A DNA stretch of 32,881 bases from Actinomyces polynesiensis (lineage in GTDB: Bacteria; Actinomycetota; Actinomycetes; Actinomycetales; Actinomycetaceae): assembly GCF_000820725.1 (NCBI RefSeq), contig NZ_CCXH01000302.1, positions 1 to 32,881 of the forward strand, read 5' to 3'. The notes below the pieces were generated by a model. That model worked only from the letters and a program-made list of their open reading frames with translations, was not told where the DNA came from and ran no database searches. Each line of letters begins with the position of its first letter. Within the stretch, counting starts at the first letter, position 1. Both the position numbers and the translations under genes were made by a program. Positions 5,238 to 24,620 of the stretch are shown piece by piece.

Positions 5238-7178
5238 GTGTACTCTGACGCGCCCTGGGCGCTGACCGCTGCGCTCAGCCCGCGGCCGAGCGTGCGCGTG
5301 GCCACCAGAGACGCCCACGGCACCGTGCTCAACCAGTACACGAGCCAGCACCGCATCGACGGTCCCGAACCCGACCGCCCCTGGGCCGTCTACCTGGCCG
5401 ACACCGAGCGTCGCTTCCACCTCCTCGCCTTCGACCTCGACGCCAAGACCGCCGGCAGCGCCGCCGCGGCCGAGCGCGACGCTGACACGATCGCCGGACT
5501 CCTCGACGACGCCGGACTGACCGCCGTCGTGTGCGAGTCCGGTCCCGGCGGCGGCCGCCACGTCTGGACGGCCCTGGCCGAGCCCGCCGACCCGGAGAGC
5601 GTGGCCACGCTGGCGCGCCTGGCGCGCCACCTGTGCCCCACACTCGACCTCGCACCGCTGAGCAACCCCGTGACCGGCTGTGTGCGGCCACCAGGTGCCC
5701 CACACCGATCCGGCGGCCGCTCAGTCGTGCTGCGCGGCGACACAACGGCTCTCACAGCACCCACGGGCACCAGGGCGCAGGTCCGCGCCCTGATTGAGCG
5801 CCTGGCCCAGCTCGTCGACGACGCCGAGCCCTCCCAGACGCCAGACCCCCGCCGGCCGCTCCCCCTCGACGACCACGGCCGGCTCTACCTGCCAGGCCCC
5901 CGCCGGCCCCTGCCGGCAGTCAGCGCCGCGGCGCTGCGCGAGGACGCCGCCGCAGGCGACGCCTCAGCGGTCCTATGGCGGGTCCTGATCGGCGCGGCCG
6001 CCGCCAGGTGGCACTACGTCGACGTCGCCGCCCTCGTGGACACCGAGCCCGGCCTAGAGCATGTCCGCACCTACCGCGACCGATCCCACCGCACGCCGCG
6101 CGGCCGTATCGGCGCCGAGCGCGTGCTGCGCCGGCAGTGGGACAAGGCCGTGCGCTACGTGGCCACCAGCGGCCGCCAGGTGGGCGACGATCCCACGTTC
6201 GACGCACGCGCCGACGCGATCGCCGCTCACGTCCGCCAGGTGCAGTCCCGCGCCGACGCGGCCGCCGGCCGCTGGACCCGCGGCGGCGGCCCCGCCGACC
6301 GCCGCGTGCTCGACGTGCTGTGCGTGCTCGCCCTACAGGCCCTCAGAGCCTCCGTGGAGGCCGACACCCGCCGCCTGGCCCTCCTGGCAGGCATCGGCCG
6401 CGAGACGGCCCGCACGGCGCTGCTGCGCCTCGCGGAGGACGGCTGGATCGCCCAGGCCCAGGCAGCCGACGGACCCCACGGGGCGGCCTGGTCGATCGAC
6501 CCCACCGGCGCTTTCCACAGGGATGCAGGTACGAGTCGGTCACAAGCGGACCCGCGCCCCGCAGGGGCCGGGGCCGCAGAGAGAACTACCCTCCTCGAAG
6601 CTCTCACCGCTCGCATGACCGATGCCCGGCACGATCTGTTCACCCCCGGACCAGGGCTCGGCCATCACGCAGGAAACGTCTATGCCCGCACCTCGACCGA
6701 TCCCCAGGACCTCGACGAGCTGAGTCAGGCCACCGGTGCTGACGCGGGCACCACCAGGCGCACCCTCAACCGACTCACATCGGCCGGCGTGCTGATCCAG
6801 ACCCGCGACGGCTGGCGCAGACGCGCCACCGACTACCGTCGAGCGGCCGCTGCTCACCTCGACGTCGCAGGACGCCTCGACGACCGAGCACGCCGCTACC
6901 GCATCGAGCGCGAGCTGTGGGCATGGTGGCAGGCCGAGGAGGCATGGATGCGGGCACCGCGGCGCACAGCTCCGAGCCGACGACCTGGCCCCGGCCAGCT
7001 CGCACTCCTGCCCGAGCTGGGGACCAATGCGTACGGAGCACACCCCCGCCGAGCAGACGGCCGAGCCGACTATCGAGCGGCCCGAGCGATGCTCTCCGGC
7101 CCGTCGGCAGACACCGACGAGCCGTGGACCGCAGAGCGCGACCTGGTGCACGTCCTGGGAGCCGTGCGGATCGCGTAA
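5238..7178 (+). CDS. Replication protein: AEP-type primase with winged-helix domains
   Basis: A 646-aa protein. The N-terminal third has archaeo-eukaryotic primase motifs: the acidic pair FDLD (D66, D68), SGPGGGRH at 101-108 and a later PPGAPHRSGG region. A helical middle follows. Residues about 355-420 (GRETARTALLRLAEDGW) and about 480-530 (AGTTRRTLNRLTSAGV) look like two winged-helix DNA-binding units. This primase-plus-DNA-binding design is common in replication initiators of actinobacterial plasmids, and no other Rep candidate is present. GTG 5238 has no good ribosome site. The strong AGGAGG at 5200-5205 is 8 nt before an in-frame ATC (5214) and 11 nt before ATA (5217), so a non-canonical start is possible. 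A terminator follows the stop. Confidence 0.8.
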   Translation: MYSDAPWALTAALSPRPSVRVATRDAHGTVLNQYTSQHRIDGPEPDRPWAVYLADTERRFHLLAFDLDAKTAGSAAAAERDADTIAGLLDDAGLTAVVCESGPGGGRHVWTALAEPADPESVATLARLARHLCPTLDLAPLSNPVTGCVRPPGAPHRSGGRSVVLRGDTTALTAPTGTRAQVRALIERLAQLVDDAEPSQTPDPRRPLPLDDHGRLYLPGPRRPLPAVSAAALREDAAAGDASAVLWRVLIGAAAARWHYVDVAALVDTEPGLEHVRTYRDRSHRTPRGRIGAERVLRRQWDKAVRYVATSGRQVGDDPTFDARADAIAAHVRQVQSRADAAAGRWTRGGGPADRRVLDVLCVLALQALRASVEADTRRLALLAGIGRETARTALLRLAEDGWIAQAQAADGPHGAAWSIDPTGAFHRDAGTSRSQADPRPAGAGAAERTTLLEALTARMTDARHDLFTPGPGLGHHAGNVYARTSTDPQDLDELSQATGADAGTTRRTLNRLTSAGVLIQTRDGWRRRATDYRRAAAAHLDVAGRLDDRARRYRIERELWAWWQAEEAWMRAPRRTAPSRRPGPGQLALLPELGTNAYGAHPRRADGRADYRAARAMLSGPSADTDEPWTAERDLVHVLGAVRIA

Positions 7179-7243: not shown

Positions 7244-7421
7244 CTCATTTTTTACCATTGAAGCCTTCGGCAGCATACGGTCGTCCGGCCTCCGCGCAAG
7301 TGCTTTCGCGGCATATCCTCCCTCACTCGCTGCGCTCCCTCAGTCCGGTATTCCACGGTCACTTGCACTCCGACCTCCCTCCCTAGCGGCACATGCGTGC
7401 CTTCAATGGCAAAAAAACGAG
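7244..7421. other. Large imperfect hairpin element, copy 1 (candidate ssDNA promoter or priming site)
   Basis: A 178-bp palindromic element upstream of ardC. The outer arms pair as CCATTGAAG (7255-7263) with CTTCAATGG (7401-7409), extended by TTTTTT (7248-7253) with an A-run (7411-7417). An inner arm pairs GCAGCAT (7270-7276) with 7393-7400 (one bulge). The core 7294-7372 has GCAAGTG (7296-7302) with CACTTGC (7360-7366), and 7307-7317 pairs with 7347-7357 with two mismatches. The core is nearly identical to copy 2 (8832-8911) while the arms differ in sequence yet stay self-complementary. T-rich left and A-rich right arms are the wrong way round for a terminator. On the minus strand of the left arm, TTGCGC and TATGCT lie 16 nt apart, a possible promoter inside the stem. 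Confidence 0.6.
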
Positions 7422-7443
7422 GGGGAAGAACCACACACACCCC

Positions 7444-7455
7444 GTTAGTACTATC
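7444..7455. promoter_or_regulatory. TAGTACTA palindrome upstream of ardC
   Basis: GTTAGTACTATC, a one-mismatch version of the perfect palindrome GATAGTACTATC seen at 8370. It lies 21 nt before the ardC ATG, just ahead of the ribosome site AGGAGG (7465-7470). One of at least seven copies confined to 7444-10002 and absent from other intergenic regions. Confidence 0.65.
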
Positions 7456-7475
7456 ACCGTCACCAGGAGGACACG

Positions 7476-8360
7476 ATGGCCCGCAAGATCAAGCACACCA
7501 AGAGCCCCGAGCAGCGCCGCGCCGAGGTCGAGGCCCTGCAACAGTCGATCGCGGAGCAGGTCGAGCAGCTGCGCCAGTCCGAGCAGTGGACCCGGTTCCT
7601 CGCGTTCGCGCAGACCTTCCACCGCTACAGCCTGAACAACCTTCTGCTGATCCTCGCCCAGAACCCCGAGGCGACCCACGTCGCCGGCTACCGCACGTGG
7701 CAGAGCATCGGCCGCCAGGTGCGCAAGGGAGAGCGCGGCATCCGCATCTTCGGCGGCCGCGAGGTGCGCCGCACCGTCGAGGACGAAAAGACCGGCGAGG
7801 AAAAGGAGGAGCGCGGCATGCGATTCTTCCCCGTCAGCGTGTTCGACAAGGCCCAGACCGACCCCATCGACCCCGAGGCCGACGACCCCGGCGAGATCGC
7901 CCACCAGCTCACCGGCGACGACCCCGCCGGCATTGCCGAGGCCGTGACCGACTGGCTCACCGGCCAGGGCTGGACCGTCGAGCGCGAGACGATCCCCGGC
8001 GAGACCAACGGCTACACCACCACCGACGGCAGCCGCCGCGTCGTCATCGACGCGGACCTGTCCCCCGCTCAGGCCGCCAAGACGGCGCTGCACGAGGCCG
8101 CGCACGTGATCCTGCACGCCGAGGAGGACGCCGCCGAGTACGTCGCGCACCGTGGCGTCAAGGAGACCGAAGCCGAGTCCGTCGCCTACATCGTGGCCGG
8201 GACGCTCGGCCTGGACACGGCCGCCTACAGCATCGGCTACGTCGCCGGATGGAGCGGCTGCGAGGCCGAGACGATCAAGGCCACCGCTGCCAACGTGCTG
8301 CGCGCTGCGCACACCCTGGCCGACGCCATCACCGAGGAGGAGACCCGGACCGCCGCATAA
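7476..8360 (+). CDS. ardC: ArdC-family antirestriction protein
   Basis: A 294-aa protein. The N-terminal 125 residues match the ArdC ssDNA-binding domain: a helical start, then FHRYSLNNLLLILAQNPEAT and a RTWQSIGRQVRKGERGI region. The C-terminal part is a zinc metallopeptidase-like domain with HEAAH at residues 206-210 and a downstream EAESVAY that supplies the third ligand. ArdC proteins enter or are expressed early in conjugation and protect incoming DNA from restriction. AGGAGG at 7465-7470 supports ATG 7476. A palindrome and the large hairpin element lie just upstream, and the gene is read toward the presumed oriT, as expected for a leading-region gene. Confidence 0.9.
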   Translation: MARKIKHTKSPEQRRAEVEALQQSIAEQVEQLRQSEQWTRFLAFAQTFHRYSLNNLLLILAQNPEATHVAGYRTWQSIGRQVRKGERGIRIFGGREVRRTVEDEKTGEEKEERGMRFFPVSVFDKAQTDPIDPEADDPGEIAHQLTGDDPAGIAEAVTDWLTGQGWTVERETIPGETNGYTTTDGSRRVVIDADLSPAQAAKTALHEAAHVILHAEEDAAEYVAHRGVKETEAESVAYIVAGTLGLDTAAYSIGYVAGWSGCEAETIKATAANVLRAAHTLADAITEEETRTAA

Positions 8361-8369
8361 AACACCCCG

Positions 8370-8415
8370 GATAGTACTATCACCGCTGCGAACCCGTGGC
8401 GGTGATAGTACTATT
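8370..8415. promoter_or_regulatory. Paired TAGTACTA palindromes in inverted arrangement
   Basis: GATAGTACTATC (8370-8381, a perfect 12-bp palindrome) and GATAGTACTATT (8404-8415). The two sites are arms of a larger inverted repeat: 8371-8386 pairs with 8399-8414 over 16 bp with a 12-nt loop. It can act as a double operator, and as RNA it would form a strong hairpin after ardC. An SD-like AGAGG follows at 8416-8420 but no ATG or GTG start is near it. The interval to the next site could encode a short peptide tail (VKNEGHYVYRNTPRP) without a normal start. Confidence 0.65.
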
Positions 8416-8465
8416 AGAGGTAAAGAACGAAGGCCACTACGTCTACCGCAACACACCCCGACCCT

Positions 8466-8477
8466 GATAGTACTACT
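8466..8477. promoter_or_regulatory. TAGTACTA palindrome variant
   Basis: GATAGTACTACT, directly followed by AGAGGAGG (8478-8485), the ribosome site of the small disrupted gene at 8493. Same position relative to the ribosome site as the copies at 8404 and 9263. Confidence 0.6.
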
Positions 8478-8492
8478 AGAGGAGGTAACGCC

Positions 8493-8602
8493 ATGAGTGC
8501 CGGAACCGTCATCATCGAGACCCGCCCGTTCAAGACGTGTTCCCCGACGCGCCGCGCGCCGAGCGCGAGGTCATCATCAGCGGCACGCACCCGAGCTGCT
8601 GA
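8493..8602 (+). pseudogene. Small gene with an apparent one-base frameshift
   Basis: ATG 8493 has a strong ribosome site (AGAGGAGG, 8478-8485) and opens with MSAGTVIIETRPFKT. After codon 15 the frame turns into arginine/serine-rich text. The +1 frame instead gives VFPDAPRAEREVIISGTHPS and a Cys before TGA at 8600-8602. Joining the two gives a plausible 36-37-aa protein. The most likely cause is a lost base near 8535-8540, either a real mutation or a sequence error. No family recognised. Its operator and ribosome site match those of the neighbouring genes, so it was part of the same regulon. Confidence 0.5.
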
Positions 8603-8786
8603 GCCGAAATGTTCGGTCCGGCACCGGCCGATGATTAGGCTCGTCGTGTTAGTCCCTCGTCGAGGCTCGTCCCCCCAGGGCCGACGCGAGGGGCTGCGCC
8701 CCTCGCGCTCCCCCACCGCCTGGGGCGACGGAGCTCCCCAGGCCAGAAGCGGACGCCGGCCACAGGCTGGCGACGGCAACCGAGTG
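8603..8786. other. Non-coding structured stretch before hairpin element 2
   Basis: No convincing gene on either strand. It holds at least two strong hairpins: GCGAGGGG/CCCCTCGC (8686-8693 with 8699-8706, 5-nt loop) and GCCTGGGG/CCCCAGGC (8718-8725 with 8736-8743). A CCCCAGG earlier at 8673-8679 could compete with the second. Together with the element at 8787-8957 this makes about 350 bp of folded, untranslated DNA before the redoxin gene. Copy 1 of the element is likewise preceded by two hairpins (7184-7223). Confidence 0.5.
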
Positions 8787-8957
8787 TTTTTCATTCGTTC
8801 CTGGCGCTCCATCATGGCCGCCACGCCCTGCGCGCAAGTGCTTTCGCGGCATATCCTCGCGTCTCTCGCTGCGCTCGGCCGCTCCGGTATTCCACGGTCA
8901 CTTGCACTCCGGGCTCAGCCGGCGGCCATTGCTCCGCTATCAGGAACGAAGGAAAAA
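8787..8957. other. Large imperfect hairpin element, copy 2
   Basis: A 171-bp palindromic element ending 23 nt before the redoxin ATG. The outer arm TTTTT (8787-8791) pairs with AAAAA (8953-8957). TTCGTTCCTG (8794-8803) pairs perfectly with CAGGAACGAA (8941-8950), and ATGGCCGCC (8814-8822) with GGCGGCCAT (8921-8929). The 80-bp core 8832-8911 shares its first 27 and last 29 bases, plus a 12-base centre, with copy 1. The arm sequences are unrelated to copy 1 but have the same architecture and the same T-run/A-run bases. That argues for selection on folded structure. Confidence 0.6.
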
Positions 8958-8980
8958 GATGATCGAGGGAGGAGACCGAC

Positions 8981-9244
8981 ATGCTGACCATCACCGTCTA
9001 CACCACCGGCCCCGGCTGCGGCCGTTGCCTGCTGACGAAGCGAGCACTGGACAAGGAGGGCATCACCTACCGCGAGGTGAACATCCGAGAGAACCCGGCA
9101 GCGCGCGAGTACGTCACCGAGGAGCTGGGATACTCCGAGGCCCCCGTGTGTGTCGTCGAGGACGGCACCGGCGAGGATCACTGGTCAGGCTTCTGGCCCG
9201 ACGAAATCGAGCGTGTGGCCGCCGCACGGAAAGCCACCACATGA
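8981..9244 (+). CDS. NrdH/glutaredoxin-like redoxin
   Basis: An 87-aa thioredoxin-fold protein. The active site is C13-G-R-C16 after the VYTTGPG strand. A cis-proline follows in EAPVCVVEDG, and the end WSGFWPDEIERV has the NrdH-type WSGF pattern. Such redoxins reduce ribonucleotide reductase or other thiol enzymes. On plasmids and phages they may support dNTP supply, which would fit second-strand synthesis after transfer. GGGAGGAG lies just upstream of ATG 8981. Preceded immediately by hairpin element 2 and followed by a TAGTACTA site. Confidence 0.85.
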   Translation: MLTITVYTTGPGCGRCLLTKRALDKEGITYREVNIRENPAAREYVTEELGYSEAPVCVVEDGTGEDHWSGFWPDEIERVAAARKATT

Positions 9245-9262
9245 TGCGAAAGACCGGCCCCC

Positions 9263-9274
9263 CATAGTACTATT
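9263..9274. promoter_or_regulatory. TAGTACTA palindrome between the redoxin gene and the next gene
   Basis: CATAGTACTATT followed directly by AGAGGTAA, the same extended sequence as at 8404-8423. It lies 18 nt after the redoxin stop and 30 nt before ATG 9305. The embedded TACTAT (9268-9273) fits a -10 box, but no -35 was seen. Confidence 0.6.
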
Positions 9275-9304
9275 AGAGGTAACAGAGGACAGAAGGGAAT
9301 CGAC

Positions 9305-9559
9305 ATGCTGACCATCACGTTCACCGAGGAGCAGGCCCGAGGGCTGGCCGAGCTGATCGACCTGGCCGAGCGCGGCCGCGAGGGCTTCGAGTATCAGGCG
9401 AGCTTCGGTGACTACACAGAGGACGACATGCAGGCCGCAGAGGTGAGCTGGCAACGAGCGCAGGTCACCGCCGAAATGCTCCGCTCGGAACCATTGACCC
9501 CTATCAACCCTGTTAGTACTGTCAGAGTCAGTATTACTAACCCAAGGAGGAACCCATGA
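9305..9559 (+). CDS. Small hypothetical protein upstream of ssb
   Basis: An 84-aa protein, MLTITFTEEQARGLAELIDL..., with a predicted helix-rich N-terminal half. GAAGGGA lies 7 nt before ATG 9305. The stop overlaps the ssb start (ATGA), so the two are coupled. Its last 20 codons run through a palindrome and promoter (9494-9541), so the tail may be of little functional weight. No family recognised. It belongs to the palindrome-controlled block and could be the regulator itself, but has no clear DNA-binding motif. Confidence 0.6.
   Translation: MLTITFTEEQARGLAELIDLAERGREGFEYQASFGDYTEDDMQAAEVSWQRAQVTAEMLRSEPLTPINPVSTVRVSITNPRRNP
9494..9541 (+). promoter_or_regulatory. ssb promoter overlapped by a palindrome pair
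   Basis: TTGACC (9494-9499) and TACTGT (9517-9522) are separated by 17 nt, the best sigma-70-type promoter in the block. The -10 lies inside the palindrome GTTAGTACTGTC (9512-9523). A degenerate inverted copy ending in ATTACTAAC follows (about 9527-9541). A protein bound to the palindrome would sit on the -10, which argues for repression. AAGGAGG (9544-9550) then leads into ATG 9556. Confidence 0.65.
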
Positions 9560-9945
9560 GCTACATCACCCGCACCGGAAACTTGGCCGGAACCCCCGAG
9601 CTGCGCGAGGGAGAGCGCGGCCCGTACACCTACGCCCGCGTCATCGTGTCCGACTGCATCCGTCAGGAGGACGGCAGCTACACCGACGGACCGGCGATCG
9701 CCTACGACGTCCTGGTGAGTGGCAACCAGGCCGTGAACCTGGTCGCCGCCGCCGAGGCGAGCGGCAACATCCGCATCACGTTCGCGGGCCGCTACCGCGT
9801 CACGGAGTGGCAGGGCGAGCAAGGCACTCGCGTGCAGCACGAGGTCCGAGCCGACGAGGTGAGCGTGAGTCTGATCGGTCAGAAGGTGACCGTTGAGCGC
9901 TCCCGAGGCGACGCAACGCCGCTCGACGAAAACTCGCCGTTCTGA
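9556..9945 (+). CDS. ssb: Single-stranded DNA-binding protein
   Basis: A 129-aa OB-fold protein with the SSB layout: an initial strand MSYITRTGNLAGTPELREG, then ARVIVSD, and a central basic/beta region ending in VSVSLIGQKVTVER. The C-terminus DENSPF is the acidic tail with terminal Pro-Phe that recruits partner proteins. Plasmid SSBs coat the incoming strand during conjugation and can blunt the SOS response. Start supported by AAGGAGG at 9544-9550. Shorter than chromosomal SSB, with only a brief linker. Followed by a hairpin and then the parA operon. Confidence 0.9.
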   Translation: MSYITRTGNLAGTPELREGERGPYTYARVIVSDCIRQEDGSYTDGPAIAYDVLVSGNQAVNLVAAAEASGNIRITFAGRYRVTEWQGEQGTRVQHEVRADEVSVSLIGQKVTVERSRGDATPLDENSPF

Positions 9946-9953
9946 TCGAGCCC

Positions 9954-9990
9954 AGGGGCGCGGCCGCCGATTCGTCGGCACCGCGCCCCT
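9954..9990. terminator. Stable hairpin after ssb
   Basis: AGGGGCGCGG (9954-9963) pairs with CCGCGCCCCT (9981-9990), and an inner GCCGA/TCGGC stem closes on a TTCG tetraloop (9971-9974). There is no T-run, so termination is probable but not certain. It separates ssb from the palindrome that controls parA. Confidence 0.6.
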
Positions 9991-10002
9991 GACAGTACTA
10001 TT
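9991..10002. promoter_or_regulatory. TAGTACTA palindrome upstream of parA
   Basis: GACAGTACTATT, followed by a partial half site (GACACTATT, 10003-10011) and the ribosome site GGAGG (10012-10016) before GTG 10024. Last of the seven copies. Its presence links partition-gene expression to the same control as ardC and ssb. Confidence 0.6.
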
Positions 10003-10023: not shown

Positions 10024-10821
10024 GTGACCGCTCAAATCTTCGCCCTCTGCAACCAGAAGGGCGGCGTCGGCAAGTCGACGACGACATTTCACCTGGCGCG
10101 CGCCGCGGTGCTGCGCGGCCAGCGCGTGCTTGTGGTCGACAACGATCCCCAGGGAAACCTGACGTCCGTCGCGGCTGCCGAACCCGTGGGGGAGGACCAG
10201 GCAGGGCTGGCCGACGCGCTCAGTGCGCGCGCGCCTGAGACCATCCGGGACGTGATCGTGCCGGGAGTCTGGCCCGGCCTCGACGTCGTGCCGACGTCGG
10301 GAGTCACACTCGGCTACGTGCGCGACGAGCTCGTGATCGCCGGGGCCGGCCGAGAGGGCCGGCTGCGCGAGGCCCTGGCCGCCGTCGCCGGCGACTACGA
10401 CGTGATCCTGATCGACTGCGCCCCATCGCTCGACCAGCTCACGATCAACGGCCTAACGGCCGCGCAGGGCGTCGTCGTCGTGACCCACTCGAAGCTGTGG
10501 AGCGCCAACGGCCTCGCCCAGTTGCTCGACACCATCGAGAGCGTGCGCGGCTACTACAACCCCGAGCTGGGCGTGGCGGGCATCATCGTCAACCAGCACG
10601 AGGAGAACACCGTCAGCGGAAAGACCTGGCTCGACGAGCTGCACCAGGCCGCCGAGTCCCGAGGGCTGAGCGTGCTCAGCCCGCCGATCCCGAAGCGCGT
10701 CGTCATCGCAGACGCCACCGAGGCCGCGCGCGGCCTCGACGAGTGGGGGAGTGCCGAGGCAACCGCGCTCGGCCAGTTGTACGCCGACCACCTGACCAGC
10801 ATCGAAGGAGCCCTGTCATGA
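10024..10821 (+). CDS. parA: ParA partition ATPase
   Basis: A 265-aa protein with the deviant Walker A KGGVGKSTTT (residues about 12-21), VVDNDPQGN as switch I/A', and LIDCAPS as Walker B. It lacks an N-terminal DNA-binding extension, so it is the short type Ib-like form. It drives plasmid segregation together with the protein encoded next. GTG 10024 follows GGAGG with normal spacing. The stop overlaps the next ATG (ATGA). Distinct from the larger ATPase at 2533. Confidence 0.92.
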   Translation: MTAQIFALCNQKGGVGKSTTTFHLARAAVLRGQRVLVVDNDPQGNLTSVAAAEPVGEDQAGLADALSARAPETIRDVIVPGVWPGLDVVPTSGVTLGYVRDELVIAGAGREGRLREALAAVAGDYDVILIDCAPSLDQLTINGLTAAQGVVVVTHSKLWSANGLAQLLDTIESVRGYYNPELGVAGIIVNQHEENTVSGKTWLDELHQAAESRGLSVLSPPIPKRVVIADATEAARGLDEWGSAEATALGQLYADHLTSIEGALS

Positions 10822-15411: not shown

Positions 15412-16784
15412 GAGTGGTGTAGCCCCCACAGTGGCCGTGGCCGTCGATGACGGCAGGGCGGTCACCGTGGGATCCTTCGAGTTCACCTACCAAAGCTCTC
15501 TCAAAGGAAATCAACCACGATGACCGCTCCTCACATTGTCGACCCCGCCCGCGTGCTGGGCAACCTGCTGACCGAAGCCTCTCCGGACATGATGCGCCAG
15601 CTGCTGCAGAACATGATCAACGCCCTCCTCTCGGCCGATGCCGACGCCGTGTGCGGCGCCGAATGGGGACAGCCCTCAACCGAGCGGGTCGCGCAGCGCA
15701 ACGGCTACCGCCACCGCCCGCTGGACACCCGCGTCGGCACCATCGACGTGGCCGTCCCGAAGCTGCGCTCCGGCAGCTACTTTCCCGAGTGGCTGCTGGA
15801 GCGCCGCAAACGAGCCGAAGCGGCCCTGATCACGGTGATCGCTGACTGCTACCTCGCCGGCGTCAGTACTCGTCGGATGGACAAACTCGTCAAGACCCTG
15901 GGCATCGACGGCCTGTCGAAGTCACAGGTCTCACGCATGGCCGCCGACCTCGACGAACACGTAGCGCAGTTCCGGCACCGCCCCCTGGGCGAGGCCGGGC
16001 CGTTCACGTTTGTTGCAGCTGACGCGTTGACGATGAAGGTCCGCGAAGGCGGACGCGTGATCAACGCCGTGGTCCTCGTCGCCACCGGCGTCAACGGCGA
16101 CGGACACCGCGAGGTCCTGGGCCTGCAGGTCGTCACCTCCGAGACCAAACCGGCGTGGAACACGTTCTTCGCCGATCTGGTGGCCCGCGGCCTTGCGGGG
16201 GTCCGACTGGTCACCAGCGATGCCCACGCCGGGCTGGTGGAGGCGATCGCGGCGAACCTGCCTGGCGCGTCCTGGCAGCGCTGCCGAACCCACTACGCCG
16301 CGAACCTGATGTCCGTGACCCCGAAGAGCATGTGGCCCGCGGTCAAAGCGATGCTCCATTCGGTCTATGACCAACCCGACAAAAAGTCGGTCCAGGCGCA
16401 GTTCGACCGTCTGCTCGACTACACCGCCGAGAAGCTACCCGAGGTTGCAGAGCACCTCGAAGCCGCCCGGGCAGACGTGCTCGCGTTCACCGGCTTCCCC
16501 AAGGACGTGTGGACCCAGATCTGGTCGAACAACCCCGCCGAACGCCTGAACCGTGAGATCCGCCGCCGCACCGACGCGGTCGGGATCTTCCCCAACCGGG
16601 AAGCGATCATCCGCCTCGTCGGCGCTGTCTTGGCCGAGCAGACCGATGAGTGGGCAGAAGGGCGCCGCTACCTCGGCCTCGACGTCCTCGCACGATGCCG
16701 ACTCAGCACCATCACCAACGCCGTTGAGGAGGTGACCGAACCCCTCGCCCTCACCGCCTAGACGAAGGAACCGCTACACCACTC
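15412..16784 (+). mobile_element. IS256-family insertion sequence
   Basis: Terminal inverted repeats GAGTGGTGTAGC (15412-15423) and GCTACACCACTC (16773-16784) are perfect over 12 bp and frame one intact transposase. The true ends may extend several bases further out, since partial similarity continues. No 8-9-bp target duplication is visible: the flanks GCCCCCTA (15404-15411) and CACTGGAC (16785-16792) differ. The left flank cuts a resolvase gene and the right flank cuts a small gene of the SMR operon. Confidence 0.82.
15520..16761 (+). CDS. IS256-family (Mutator type) transposase
   Basis: A 413-aa protein, full length for the family. A short N-terminal helical domain is followed by the catalytic core: candidate acidic residues in VAADALTMKV (first Asp), VTSDAHAG (second Asp) and NNPAERLNREIRRR (Glu). 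RCRTHYAANLM is the family CxxH block. AAAGGA lies upstream of ATG 15520. It cuts and rejoins the ends of the element in trans or cis. No frameshift seen, so it should be active. Confidence 0.93.
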   Translation: MTAPHIVDPARVLGNLLTEASPDMMRQLLQNMINALLSADADAVCGAEWGQPSTERVAQRNGYRHRPLDTRVGTIDVAVPKLRSGSYFPEWLLERRKRAEAALITVIADCYLAGVSTRRMDKLVKTLGIDGLSKSQVSRMAADLDEHVAQFRHRPLGEAGPFTFVAADALTMKVREGGRVINAVVLVATGVNGDGHREVLGLQVVTSETKPAWNTFFADLVARGLAGVRLVTSDAHAGLVEAIAANLPGASWQRCRTHYAANLMSVTPKSMWPAVKAMLHSVYDQPDKKSVQAQFDRLLDYTAEKLPEVAEHLEAARADVLAFTGFPKDVWTQIWSNNPAERLNREIRRRTDAVGIFPNREAIIRLVGAVLAEQTDEWAEGRRYLGLDVLARCRLSTITNAVEEVTEPLALTA

Positions 16785-21439: not shown

Positions 21440-21614
21440 CGAAACAGCATGGCGCGGCGGAGCCGCGACCGCTCCCGTCTACCGACGTGAGTCAACAGCG
21501 ATAGGAGTCCCGGACGGAGCAAGCTAAACACTTAGCACGGCTAAGTGGCTTGGATCCTCGACTTGGCGTCGCGGATCGGGCACACTAGGAGTGTGGTCCC
21601 CGCACGAGGCGGGG
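21420..21614. other. Probable oriT region
   Basis: About 200 bp between the minus-strand gene and mobC, the usual home of oriT in MobC/MOBP plasmids. It carries five inverted repeats: 21420-21439; CGCGGC/GCCGCG (21453-21458 with 21462-21467); CACTTAGC/GCTAAGTG (21529-21536 with 21540-21547, 3-nt loop); CACACT/AGTGTG (21581-21586 with 21590-21595); and CCCCGC/GCGGGG (21598-21603 with 21609-21614). The CACTTAGC hairpin followed by GCTTGG is the best candidate for the relaxase site, since nic usually lies just beyond such a hairpin. The nick cannot be placed from sequence alone. Confidence 0.55.
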
Positions 21615-21647
21615 TCGCTGCGCTGGGCTGGAAGGGCAGGTGATCTG

Positions 21648-22046
21648 ATGGGCGACGAGGCTCCCAAGGGTCGCCTGTTCGCGCGACGTCGCCGGGCGAA
21701 CGTCGACGGTGGGCGGCAGCACCGTCACGAGGTGAAGGTGTCGCCCGAGGAGGAGGGCATGCTGCTGCGTCTCGCGGAGGCGCAGCACGTGACCATCCCG
21801 CGGCTGCTCGTCGAGTGCGCGCTAGCGTCCGCGACGTCGGAGACTCCCACCGAGCGGCGCAACGCGATGGCCGAGCTGTTCGCGCTGCACCGGCTGCTCG
21901 CGGCCATCTCGACCAACGTCAACCAGATGGCTCGTGCGACCAACGCGACCGGTGAGGTGCAGGCGGGGATGAGCGCGACGCTCGACGCCGTGCGCCGCAC
22001 CGCGCAGCGCATCGACGACGCGATCGACGGGCTGAGCCTGCCATGA
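21648..22046 (+). CDS. MobC-like relaxosome accessory protein
   Basis: A 132-aa protein. A basic N-terminal part (GRLFARRRRANVDGGRQH) leads into a ribbon-helix-helix-like start (RHEVKVSPEEEGMLLRLAEA, then VTIPRLLVECAL). The helical C-terminus, LHRLLAAISTNVNQMARATN, is the MobC/NikA family signature that contacts the relaxase. It binds oriT and loads the relaxase at nic. ATG 21648 is preferred (AGG 7 nt upstream); an upstream GTG at 21591 lies within the oriT hairpins. The stop overlaps the relaxase start. Confidence 0.87.
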   Translation: MGDEAPKGRLFARRRRANVDGGRQHRHEVKVSPEEEGMLLRLAEAQHVTIPRLLVECALASATSETPTERRNAMAELFALHRLLAAISTNVNQMARATNATGEVQAGMSATLDAVRRTAQRIDDAIDGLSLP

Positions 22047-23758
22047 TGCCGAACGTTGTCCGCGGCGACAGGATGGCCGGACTGCTGACGTACCTGGTGG
22101 GACCGGGGCGCGCGAACGAGCACACCGAACCTCACCTCGTTGCCGGTGACGAGGCGATGATGGCGTGGCACGACGACGACGAGCTGGGACGCGATTCGGC
22201 GCTGGCGATCGCGCGTCACCTCGACCGCCCGCGCACCGCGTACGACGTGGAGGTCAAGGGCGGCCACGTGTGGCACTGCTCGCTGTCTCTACGAGCCGAC
22301 GAGGGCGCCCTGACCGATGAGCAGTGGGGAGCGATCGCCCGCGACTTCATCACCGCGATGGAGTTCGACGACAACGAGGGCACGAAGGCTCCGTGCCGGT
22401 GGGTTGCCGTGCGCCACGGTGTGTCGACGAACGGCAACGACCACATCCACATCGCCGTGAACCTGGTGCGCGAGGACGGCACCAAGGCGTCGACGCACCA
22501 CGACTTCCGACGCGCGCAGACTGCCGCCCGTGCACTCGAAGCGAAGTACGGGTTGGAGGAGTTGGAGTCGGTGCGCGCGGAGCGCTCGACGCGCGGCTAC
22601 AACCCCGCCGAGCGCGAGGCTCAGGCACGTGCCCGCGCGCGTGCCAAGCACGAGCGAAGCCGGTCGAAGCTGGGCGCGGACGCACCGACCTGGGAGGCGT
22701 TGGCCGGCGACGACCGGCAGGCACTCATTGCGTCGGAGTTGCGCACCGATCAGCCGCGCTACCTCCTGGCATTGAAGGTGCGTGCGGCCTCGACAGCGAG
22801 CGACAGTGAAGCCGAGTTCGTGCGTCGCATGCGGCGGTCTGGGCTGCTGGTCCGACCCCGCTATGCGGACGGCCGAACTGACGTCATTACCGGCTACTCA
22901 GTGGCCGAGCGGCCGCAGGCCGGCGAGCGGCCGATCTGGTACGGCGGCGGCCACCTGGGCCGCGACCTCACGCTGCCCAGGCTGCGCGATGGCTGGCCCG
23001 ACACGGTCACCGGCGCGAGCGAAGCGGCGGACGAATGGAACGCCGCCAAGCGGGGCCGGCGCGTGGTCGCACCCGGACGCGAAGCGAGCGAACCAGACCC
23101 GGAGCTGTGGGATAAGCGCAACGCCGAACTGAGCCAGCTCGTGGACCGGCTGCGCTCGATCCCCGTCGACGATCGGGACACCTGGGCGACCGTTGCACGC
23201 CAGACGGCGGGAGCCCTCGCCGCGTGGTCCAACGCGACTGAGGAGACGCCGGGAGACCTGGCCGCGGCAGCGGATGCACTGTCGCGCTCGGCACAGACGT
23301 ACCGGCGCACCGTGAAGCCGCAGAAGGCCGGCACGGTTGCCATCTCTGGCGCCGCGATGCTGCTCGCCAGCGCAGCGCGCGGCGGGCAGGGTGCTGTGGC
23401 GCAGGCGGCCATGATCCGGCAGTTGCTCCGTCTGACTCAGGCGGTCTACGACGCCTCCGTGGCGGCCGGTCAGGCACGCCAGGCTCAGCTCCTCGCAGAG
23501 GACACACGAGCACGCTTGGTGCGCGTCCGTGACGCGATGCCGAGCCCGGCGCCGGCGACCGCACCGAGCGGCACCGCGACGGCCACGATGACACGACCGG
23601 CGGACCTCGATCCCGAGGCCCAGGCCATGCTCGACCGGCTGCAAGCCGGGCAAGCGAAGTCGGCCACGGAAGCAGCGTCGCCCGTGCCGAACAAGATCGA
23701 GCCGGCACGGACGCGACAGCACAGCACACCGGGCGCAGCCCGCGGACCGGAACGATAG
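22043..23758 (+). CDS. MOBP-type relaxase
   Basis: A 571-aa protein. The N-terminal relaxase domain has a candidate catalytic tyrosine in MAGLLTYLVGPG (about Y17) and the metal-binding histidine triad H125, H134 and H136 in HGVSTNGNDHIHI. It nicks one strand at oriT, stays bound to the 5' end and pilots it into the channel. The rest is helical, with an alanine-rich C-terminal third (about 370-571) that probably contacts the coupling protein. No helicase or primase domain seen. Start at ATG 22043 or the adjacent ATG 22046, in overlap with mobC. Confidence 0.92.
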   Translation: MMPNVVRGDRMAGLLTYLVGPGRANEHTEPHLVAGDEAMMAWHDDDELGRDSALAIARHLDRPRTAYDVEVKGGHVWHCSLSLRADEGALTDEQWGAIARDFITAMEFDDNEGTKAPCRWVAVRHGVSTNGNDHIHIAVNLVREDGTKASTHHDFRRAQTAARALEAKYGLEELESVRAERSTRGYNPAEREAQARARARAKHERSRSKLGADAPTWEALAGDDRQALIASELRTDQPRYLLALKVRAASTASDSEAEFVRRMRRSGLLVRPRYADGRTDVITGYSVAERPQAGERPIWYGGGHLGRDLTLPRLRDGWPDTVTGASEAADEWNAAKRGRRVVAPGREASEPDPELWDKRNAELSQLVDRLRSIPVDDRDTWATVARQTAGALAAWSNATEETPGDLAAAADALSRSAQTYRRTVKPQKAGTVAISGAAMLLASAARGGQGAVAQAAMIRQLLRLTQAVYDASVAAGQARQAQLLAEDTRARLVRVRDAMPSPAPATAPSGTATATMTRPADLDPEAQAMLDRLQAGQAKSATEAASPVPNKIEPARTRQHSTPGAARGPER

Positions 23759-23771
23759 GAAGGAGGCCGTC

Positions 23772-24620
23772 ATGGCTGAGGAAACCGATGGAATCGAGGA
23801 GGCGTTCGAGGGCCAGCTACGGGTCCTCGTGACGGCCGCCGGACAGGTGGGCGAGAGGATCGCCCGCGGCCGCGAGGAGGCCCTACGGCGCGCCCAGGCA
23901 CAGAGCGAGCAGGAGGCGCGCGAGCTGCAATCACGACTGGCCGCCGAGCAGCGCGCCGCACGCGCCGAGCTGGCCAACGTGCACCGCTCCGACTGGTGGG
24001 ATCGAGCGACGCCCGAGGTGATCGGACGCACCTACCAGGTCGCTCGCGCGTGGTCCCAGGAGGACCCCGAGGCGGTGCGAGCCGAGCAGCGGATGAACGA
24101 CGAGCTGCGCACGCGCTACGGCGTCGACGTCAACAGCACGAACGCCGATCCGGCGGCGGTGCGAGCAGCGGTAGAGAGTGCCGAGCAGGAGCGCGCCCAG
24201 GCTGATGCCGAGCGCACCCGTGCGGCGTCGGAGAACGCGGAGGCACAGCGTCTCGTGGCTCAGGCCAACCAGGAGGATCAGCGAGCGGCGGAGGCGCGGG
24301 CAGCGGCAGAGTACGAGCCCGATCCCGACGAGCGCGCACGCGCGCTGGCCGAGGCCGAGCAGCGCGAGGCCATCGCTGACCGGGCACGAGAGGACGGTCG
24401 CACGATGTACGACAGTTCCGAGCGTCGCGAGGGCACAGCGCGGGACCTGGAATCGCGCGGCATCAGCGAGGAGACCGTGGCCACGAGGATGCGAGCGGAC
24501 GTCAGCCAGGCCAAGCCGGCGACGGAAGCCGTCAAGGCCGATCGCGGCAAGTCCCCGAAGGCGCGCAAGACGCGCGGCTCACGAGGGGCGCAGATTCAGC
24601 GCACCGGCCTGAGCCGGTGA
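23772..24620 (+). CDS. Coiled-coil protein of the mobilisation operon
   Basis: A 282-aa protein made largely of long charged helices: residues 10-70 and 135-215 are rich in Glu, Arg, Ala and Gln with heptad character. A short conserved-looking part, HRSDWWDRATPEVIGRTYQV, lies at about 73-92. The C-terminus is lysine-rich. AGGAAGGAGG precedes ATG 23772, 13 nt after the relaxase stop. A role as relaxosome scaffold or relaxase partner is inferred from position only. Its stop is followed by a strong terminator. Confidence 0.72.
   Translation: MAEETDGIEEAFEGQLRVLVTAAGQVGERIARGREEALRRAQAQSEQEARELQSRLAAEQRAARAELANVHRSDWWDRATPEVIGRTYQVARAWSQEDPEAVRAEQRMNDELRTRYGVDVNSTNADPAAVRAAVESAEQERAQADAERTRAASENAEAQRLVAQANQEDQRAAEARAAAEYEPDPDERARALAEAEQREAIADRAREDGRTMYDSSERREGTARDLESRGISEETVATRMRADVSQAKPATEAVKADRGKSPKARKTRGSRGAQIQRTGLSR

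Follow-up and report, generated by a model that had tools for sequence, protein, structure and literature searches.

The minus-strand origin of M13 is a hairpin in the single strand that is used by RNA polymerase, and the single-strand origins (sso) of rolling-circle plasmids carry conserved motifs, CS-6 and others. Transcription from incoming single-stranded DNA (ssDNA) has been reported for the plasmids F and ColIb-P9, and plasmid-wide searches have started from the sequences of these two. For instance, five known Frpo/ssi sequences were used as BLAST queries and candidates were then given in four islands (PMC11541004), and 18 Frpo sequences were run against PLSDB (PMC12826799). The portions of the literature cited here state that early expression of leading-region genes requires Frpo1/2 (PMC9849209) and give Frpo both promoter and priming roles (PMC7690428; for further related literature, see PMC7314908). 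Here we describe two folded elements in a 32,881-nt contig of Actinomyces polynesiensis (NZ_CCXH01000302.1, analyzed over its whole length and referred to below as the window). Both are members of one family, in which a near-invariant core lies inside stems that vary in sequence yet keep pairing. This family probably represents a second, sequence-unrelated group of ssDNA promoters or priming sites working like Frpo. The fold, covariation, strand, arm polarity, family spread, and gene layout reported below were all computed here.

The elements lie at 7244-7421 (copy 1) and 8787-8957 (copy 2), and self-comparison of the window bore out their preliminary description as two copies with shared core runs and divergent, self-pairing arms. 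The blocks common to both copies are 35 nt (94%) and 55 nt (85%), and identical runs of 27, 12, and 29 nt are visible in the alignment. The outer arms form an inverted repeat in each copy, 7248-7263 with 7401-7416 in copy 1 (16 nt, 94%) and 8787-8803 with 8941-8957 in copy 2 (17 nt, 94%), and both copies have a T-run on the left and an A-run on the right. The duplex energy of the outer arms was -21.1 in copy 1, which was reached by 1 of 1,000 shuffles, and -32.3 in copy 2, which was reached by none of 1,000; arms exchanged between the two copies paired worse (-13.4 and -18.5). Near relatives of the window elements show compensatory changes in the outermost stem (CATTG/CAATG, CGTG/CACG, CTTG/CAAG) and retain the T- and A-rich ends. 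Inspection by eye also suggests the further hairpins that had been described ahead of each copy. The features of both elements are assigned to the minus strand, which is the presumed transferred strand (T-strand) and the one that folds. A model of the family matches this strand at 7274-7387 (77.2 bits) and at 8812-8926 (67.4 bits). In copy 1, the 5′ half of the invariant core on this strand is CGTGGAATA (7349-7357) and the 3′ half is TATGCCGCGAAAG (7303-7315), flanked by the 3′ arm (7296-7302) and the 5′ arm (7360-7366) of a stem, stem 1, that covaries in the family. The corresponding core halves of copy 2 are at 8888-8896 and 8841-8853. Folding of the minus strand as DNA, which had been proposed as a check, gave z = -4.89 for copy 2; the weaker value for copy 1 is taken up below.

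Further analysis of the family pointed to selection on the folded structure. The core pattern on the folded strand, CGYGGAATA ... TATGCCGCGARAG in its looser version, was used alongside an exact search that returned 197 copies. These were reduced to 172 by dropping duplicate loci from the window's own genome (L001/L002), copies with less than 60 nt of flank, and exact repeats, and 75 representatives with less than 80% arm identity served as the covariation set and for building the family model. Several trends were apparent. First, stem 1 (8 bp), which is variable at every position and uses several Watson-Crick pair types, formed 7.41 pairs with its own partner compared to 4.96 with swapped partners (200 permutations, maximum 5.31). 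Second, the outer arms of the representatives gave -22.3 with their own partner compared to -12.75 with a swapped one. Third, the RNAalifold consensus contained 17 pairs, 8 of them with two-sided changes, and among matches to the looser pattern the inner core pairs change jointly from ACC/GGAT to AAA/TTTAT with pairing kept and the outer core constant. Finally, stem 1 on the folded strand contains 28 G.T pairs compared to 6 A.C pairs (registers set by Watson-Crick pairs only), and in 71 of the 75 representatives the presumed T-strand is the better folded of the two strands. Judging by this wobble bias and by the better fold of one strand, it is probably the strand antisense to the downstream gene that functions, and this argues against an mRNA leader. 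The earlier proposal that selection acts on structure is thus supported by covariation, by own- versus swapped-partner pairing, by the strand that folds, and by the arm-swap energies. Arm pairing was kept across the homologues, and the loss of pairing that the preliminary description had named as counterevidence did not appear in the representatives.

The family is much wider than the window. BLASTN with copy 1 matched 119 plasmid records, among them 45 from Burkholderia and 22 from Pseudomonas, plus actinobacterial genera, and copy 2 matched 195. The first, fixed-core pattern was found in at least 118 stretches of one-genome-per-species contigs (Actinomycetota, alpha-, beta-, and gammaproteobacteria, and Bacillota), in single contigs of metagenome-assembled genomes labelled Bacteroidia and Desulfovibrio, and in 27 viral contigs. 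The family model also located a copy in F at 53,979-54,089 and one in ColIb-P9 at 23,692-23,802, each just before a DNA-methylase gene and each scoring 64 bits. BLASTN with the F copy matched at least 5000 records from plasmids, almost all of them with enterobacterial names. The F copy (L017:5980-6090) overlaps a small annotated hypothetical open reading frame (ORF) that could have been called in error. The earlier idea of an actinobacterial equivalent of Frpo is therefore too narrow, as members occur in several phyla, in phage-like contigs, and in F as well. Prevalence among relatives of the window genome is patchy. The model found the element in 6 of 98 relatives, own genome included, and the looser pattern found it in 9 of 213 genomes of the same taxonomic family (reversed control, 0). 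Across the phylum, 2 of 296 genomes were positive both by model and by pattern, one being the own genome (reversed pattern control, 0), in a model search that scored only 13 candidates per genome and so may lose some.

A promoter-like signature was found on one arm of the element. On the 3′ arm, read from apex to base, TTG(ACA/CGC) is frequent at the stem 1 base and is followed by TAnnnT at a spacer of 14 to 18 nt in 76 of the 172 copies, compared to 3 of 172 opposite arms. When TAnnnT was counted at 18 to 40 nt from the core, it occurred in 98 of 172 3′ arms and 17 of 172 opposite arms (shuffles, mean 23 and maximum 35), and the same count in the 75 representatives was 38 versus 11. In the window, copy 1 has TTGCGC (7294-7299), 16 nt, and TATGCT (7272-7277) within 7272-7299, and copy 2 has TTGCGC (8832-8837), 15 nt, and CATGAT (8811-8816) within 8811-8837, aimed at ardC and nrdH, respectively. 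In duplex DNA, the gene-ward sequence mostly has no -10, which suggests a promoter specific to the single-stranded form. The predicted fold of the single strand would present the -35 and -10 boxes, with the viral subset and the F copy differing as described below.

The layout of neighboring genes fits this polarity. As had been described, each window copy lies just upstream of a leading-type gene, now identified by Pfam: an ArdC-like anti-restriction gene, the presumed target of copy 1 (7476-8360, plus strand; PF08401, PF06114), and a glutaredoxin/NrdH-like gene, the presumed target of copy 2 (8981-9244, plus strand; PF00462). Across 16 annotated plasmid stretches and the window, 26 of 31 copies have as their nearest neighbor on the right a gene that is co-directional, in a count made by hand from incomplete plasmid gene tables and passing over small ORFs overlapping the copies in F and ColIb-P9. 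A single plasmid carried as many as five copies, all of them preceding a co-directional gene. Among 100 downstream ORFs picked by a simple rule (98 of 99, with the picked window ORF replaced by the two window genes), Pfam matches included ParB_N (9), N6_N4_Mtase (4), ArdcN (4), and SSB (3), and among ORFs on the other side of the elements (the first 100 of 106) they included MobC (9) and NikA-like (5).

The polarity relative to the transfer genes was tallied for loci with a relaxase match, plus F and an Enterobacter plasmid with traM, with the T-strand deduced from layout and a nic-like site seen only for ColIb-P9. For copies away from the origin of transfer (oriT), the folded strand was opposite to the relaxase or traM coding strand in 14 of 15, as expected for the T-strand; among these 14, the L113 element lies beyond the relaxase and the L115 assignment relies on a weak match. 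In ColIb-P9, the nic-like CATCCTGT is on the minus strand 94 nt before nikA, and the oriT of the window is therefore expected just before its mobC and MOBP relaxase genes (21591-23758, plus strand). This suggests an oriT at about 21.5 kb with the elements on the leading side. With oriT in that place, the leading-side genes would read toward it, and the minus strand would be both the transferred strand and their template. We infer the identity of the transferred strand in the window (minus) from this layout.

On this basis, the elements can be modelled as follows, with RNA polymerase binding, promoter activity, priming, and the off-switch all being proposed steps. Each element would act as a promoter and priming site, and would form only during the single-stranded phase of the transferred strand (minus in the window). 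The strand would fold into a long imperfect hairpin closed at its base by the outer A/T-rich stem. The 3′ arm, from the apex outward, would supply the -35 and -10 boxes as the non-template strand and the 5′ arm would pair with it as the template; the predicted fold of copy 1 is open around the spacer and -10, and that of copy 2 is more closely paired. RNA polymerase would load on the hairpin, exit through its base, and transcribe toward the 5′ end of the strand, that is, toward ardC or nrdH. The early mRNA would thus carry ardC from copy 1, and nrdH and the genes behind it from copy 2, and this RNA might also serve as a primer for the complementary strand. Conversion of the transferred strand to duplex would remove the hairpin, the gene-ward sequence would have no good -10, and the promoter would be off.

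Several observations weigh against the view that the elements are ssDNA promoters or priming sites of this kind. The minus strand of copy 1 alone, folded as DNA, gave a weak fold (z = -1.60), and the apical loop folded no better than shuffles (P = 0.12). The invariance of the core is partly by construction, because the first search pattern fixed the core. The -10 was not enriched in the viral subset (3 versus 3 of 23), and the F copy is without the near-core -35/-10 arrangement. Five of the 31 copies face a convergent gene, and a near-perfect copy in the microvirus PQ006669 (L202:4026-4097) folds on the strand opposite to its genes. With filters off, the family model had no match in F at L017 15459-16012 (Frpo1) and no more than a partial match at background level at L017 10071-10622 (Frpo2; 5.9 bits, E = 8.6); these F repeats were assigned as Frpo1/2 by their positions ahead of ssb and a DUF932 gene. 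An 11-nt match to Frpo1/Frpo2 on the opposite strand was dropped as a sign of homology because the model gives only that background-level match there. A resemblance of the core to the M13 minus-strand origin was likewise not borne out, as the model had no match to M13 5400-6407 even with filters off. Among copies away from oriT, the folded strand of a more distant one, L132, is the relaxase coding strand. The same polarity, the reverse of that expected for the T-strand, was found for all 18 copies beside oriT, at 45 to 1115 nt before the relaxase match, and for 16 of 16 when measured from mobC (124 to 762 bp). As double-stranded DNA (dsDNA), a 3′-arm promoter in these copies (e.g., L078:2618-2663) would face mobC. 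The -10 is on the 3′ arm in 15 of 17 oriT-side loci and on the other arm in none, and in most of them the -35, as read from the sequences, is about one helical turn further out. These copies could be priming sites for the donor replacement strand, or simply mobC promoters. The ssDNA promoter proposed in the preliminary description is favored by the strand, the arm polarity, the layout, and the one-sided -10, and the opposite-polarity copies beside relaxase genes are the main unexplained result.

These same data bear on other explanations. The strongest of them, though we think it unlikely, is that the element is mainly a complementary-strand origin of the ssi/sso type, a site for synthesis of a short primer by RNA polymerase, with gene expression as a by-product. 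In its favor, contigs carrying filamentous-phage genes or replication initiators contain the element. Of 41 viral contigs, which include many near-duplicates, 34 had the folded strand as their majority coding strand, and of 10 that were protein-scanned, 8 had a Zot or replication initiator gene, with the folded strand being the coding strand of that gene in 8 of 8. The viral copies have no -10 enrichment, and some small plasmids carry the element without a downstream co-directional gene. BLAST of the window element against named phages gave no match, and elements of three viral contigs matched a microvirus, an unannotated 1.9-kb record, or nothing. Against an origin alone are the plasmid with as many as five copies, each just before a co-directional gene, and the predominance of co-directional nearest genes overall. 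Because the literature gives Frpo both roles (PMC7690428), the promoter and origin functions are not exclusive.

The elements are still less likely to be ordinary dsDNA promoters or protein-binding sites on the 3′ arm, with the palindromic arms as operators or cruciform sites. The -35/-10 on the 3′ arm is plausible for such a promoter, which beside mobC and relaxase genes would face those genes; in the leading-region group, however, it would read away from the genes. Moreover, a dsDNA site needs neither compensatory covariation of the arms nor a bias for G.T over A.C on one strand. A structured RNA leader or small RNA is very improbable. An invariant internal core with covarying stems is a feature of many RNA families, but here it is the antisense strand, relative to the downstream gene, that folds better and carries the wobbles, and the promoter signature lies inside the fold. 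Rfam gave no match at the gathering score in the window, and at nine family-bearing loci it matched only the traJ 5′ untranslated region, FinP, and sok, all in F. We give almost no credence to a small mobile palindrome, which would explain several copies per plasmid and a spread across phyla, since the polarity to neighboring genes is fixed, the stems diverge and the core does not, and no transposable or other mobile element, the alternative that had been flagged as counterevidence, is annotated under the matches (best 60 of 119 and best 60 of 195 records).

Returning to the ssDNA promoter or priming site, a broader version of it can be put forward only tentatively, as we consider it somewhat more apt to be wrong than right. 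A single module may serve leading genes on the T-strand in the recipient, priming of the donor replacement strand on the oriT side, and the complementary-strand origin of filamentous phages, with the core read by conserved host transcription machinery and the F site before the DNA-methylase gene possibly being an undescribed one, distinct from Frpo1/Frpo2. If the family does consist of ssDNA promoters unrelated in sequence to Frpo, early expression from an incoming single strand would be general and would hint at a shared mode of recognition by bacterial RNA polymerase, an incoming plasmid could switch on protective genes at once, and the element would be a marker for leading regions and new anti-defense genes in Gram-positive and environmental plasmids. 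Since F and ColIb-P9 carry a copy, the family can be tested at once in Escherichia coli K-12.

Other features of the window were also recorded. The leading-type gene block continues with a plasmid SSB gene (9556-9945, plus strand; PF00436), followed by a ParA gene (10024-10821), and a Mutator-family transposase gene (15520-16761) lies between the element block and mobC. The sequence TAGTACTRTY has nine matches within 7446-10000 (0.02 expected), near the starts of leading-type genes. These sites are probably operators of a plasmid repressor and, through derepression, would then offer another route to early expression. A further folded motif distinct from the family, GAGAACTTCGGC ... GCCGAACTTCTC, was seen at L003:12330-12450 and also in L010 and L015, where it occupies the position of window copy 2 upstream of a glutaredoxin gene. 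It is present in 68 plasmid records, mostly from Clavibacter and Curtobacterium.

The preliminary description knew of no described family that matches, and this is consistent with the Rfam results and with the literature, in which a search that did not extend to the supplementary Frpo lists found no description of this core; enterobacterial members may therefore already be counted there as Frpo or ssi. Motif strings had seven matches in paper texts, all to work that is unrelated, judging by titles and abstracts. One paper (PMC7736820) mentions an Frpo (ssi) ahead of the ecoGIX methylase gene, which may or may not be the present site. Among known systems, EGeRS of pLS20-type plasmids are similar in being repeated elements before establishment genes; the portion of that report cited here argues that EGeRS are not ssDNA promoters, the transferred strand being the non-template strand (PMC8708921). 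The sso of rolling-circle plasmids and sso1 of ICEBs1, which resembles the sso of pBAA1, are likened to the present elements by their description in part of the source as strand-specific, orientation-dependent folded ssDNA sites (PMC4595007). The strand logic of the copies in filamentous-phage contigs is similar to that of the M13 minus-strand origin, although the family has no model match there. With Frpo/ssi of F and ColIb-P9, as far as the cited portions describe them, the elements would share a presumed place in the leading region, the presumed T-strand polarity, a predicted stem-loop with -35/-10, and the position before ssb and anti-restriction-type genes. However, the family has no sequence or model similarity to Frpo1/Frpo2 of F, has an invariant bipartite core, and is present outside Enterobacteria and in phage-like contigs. 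Furthermore, F and ColIb-P9 carry their family copy at a place other than their Frpo or Frpo-like stretches; in ColIb-P9, for example, the latter are at 17.9-18.2, 24.9-25.2, and 28.0 kb of locus L165 and the family copy is at 13.7 kb. The family thus consists of folded ssDNA elements with a conserved core, a wide spread, and strong signs of strand-specific selection, and most likely it would work like Frpo without being a member of the Frpo sequence family.

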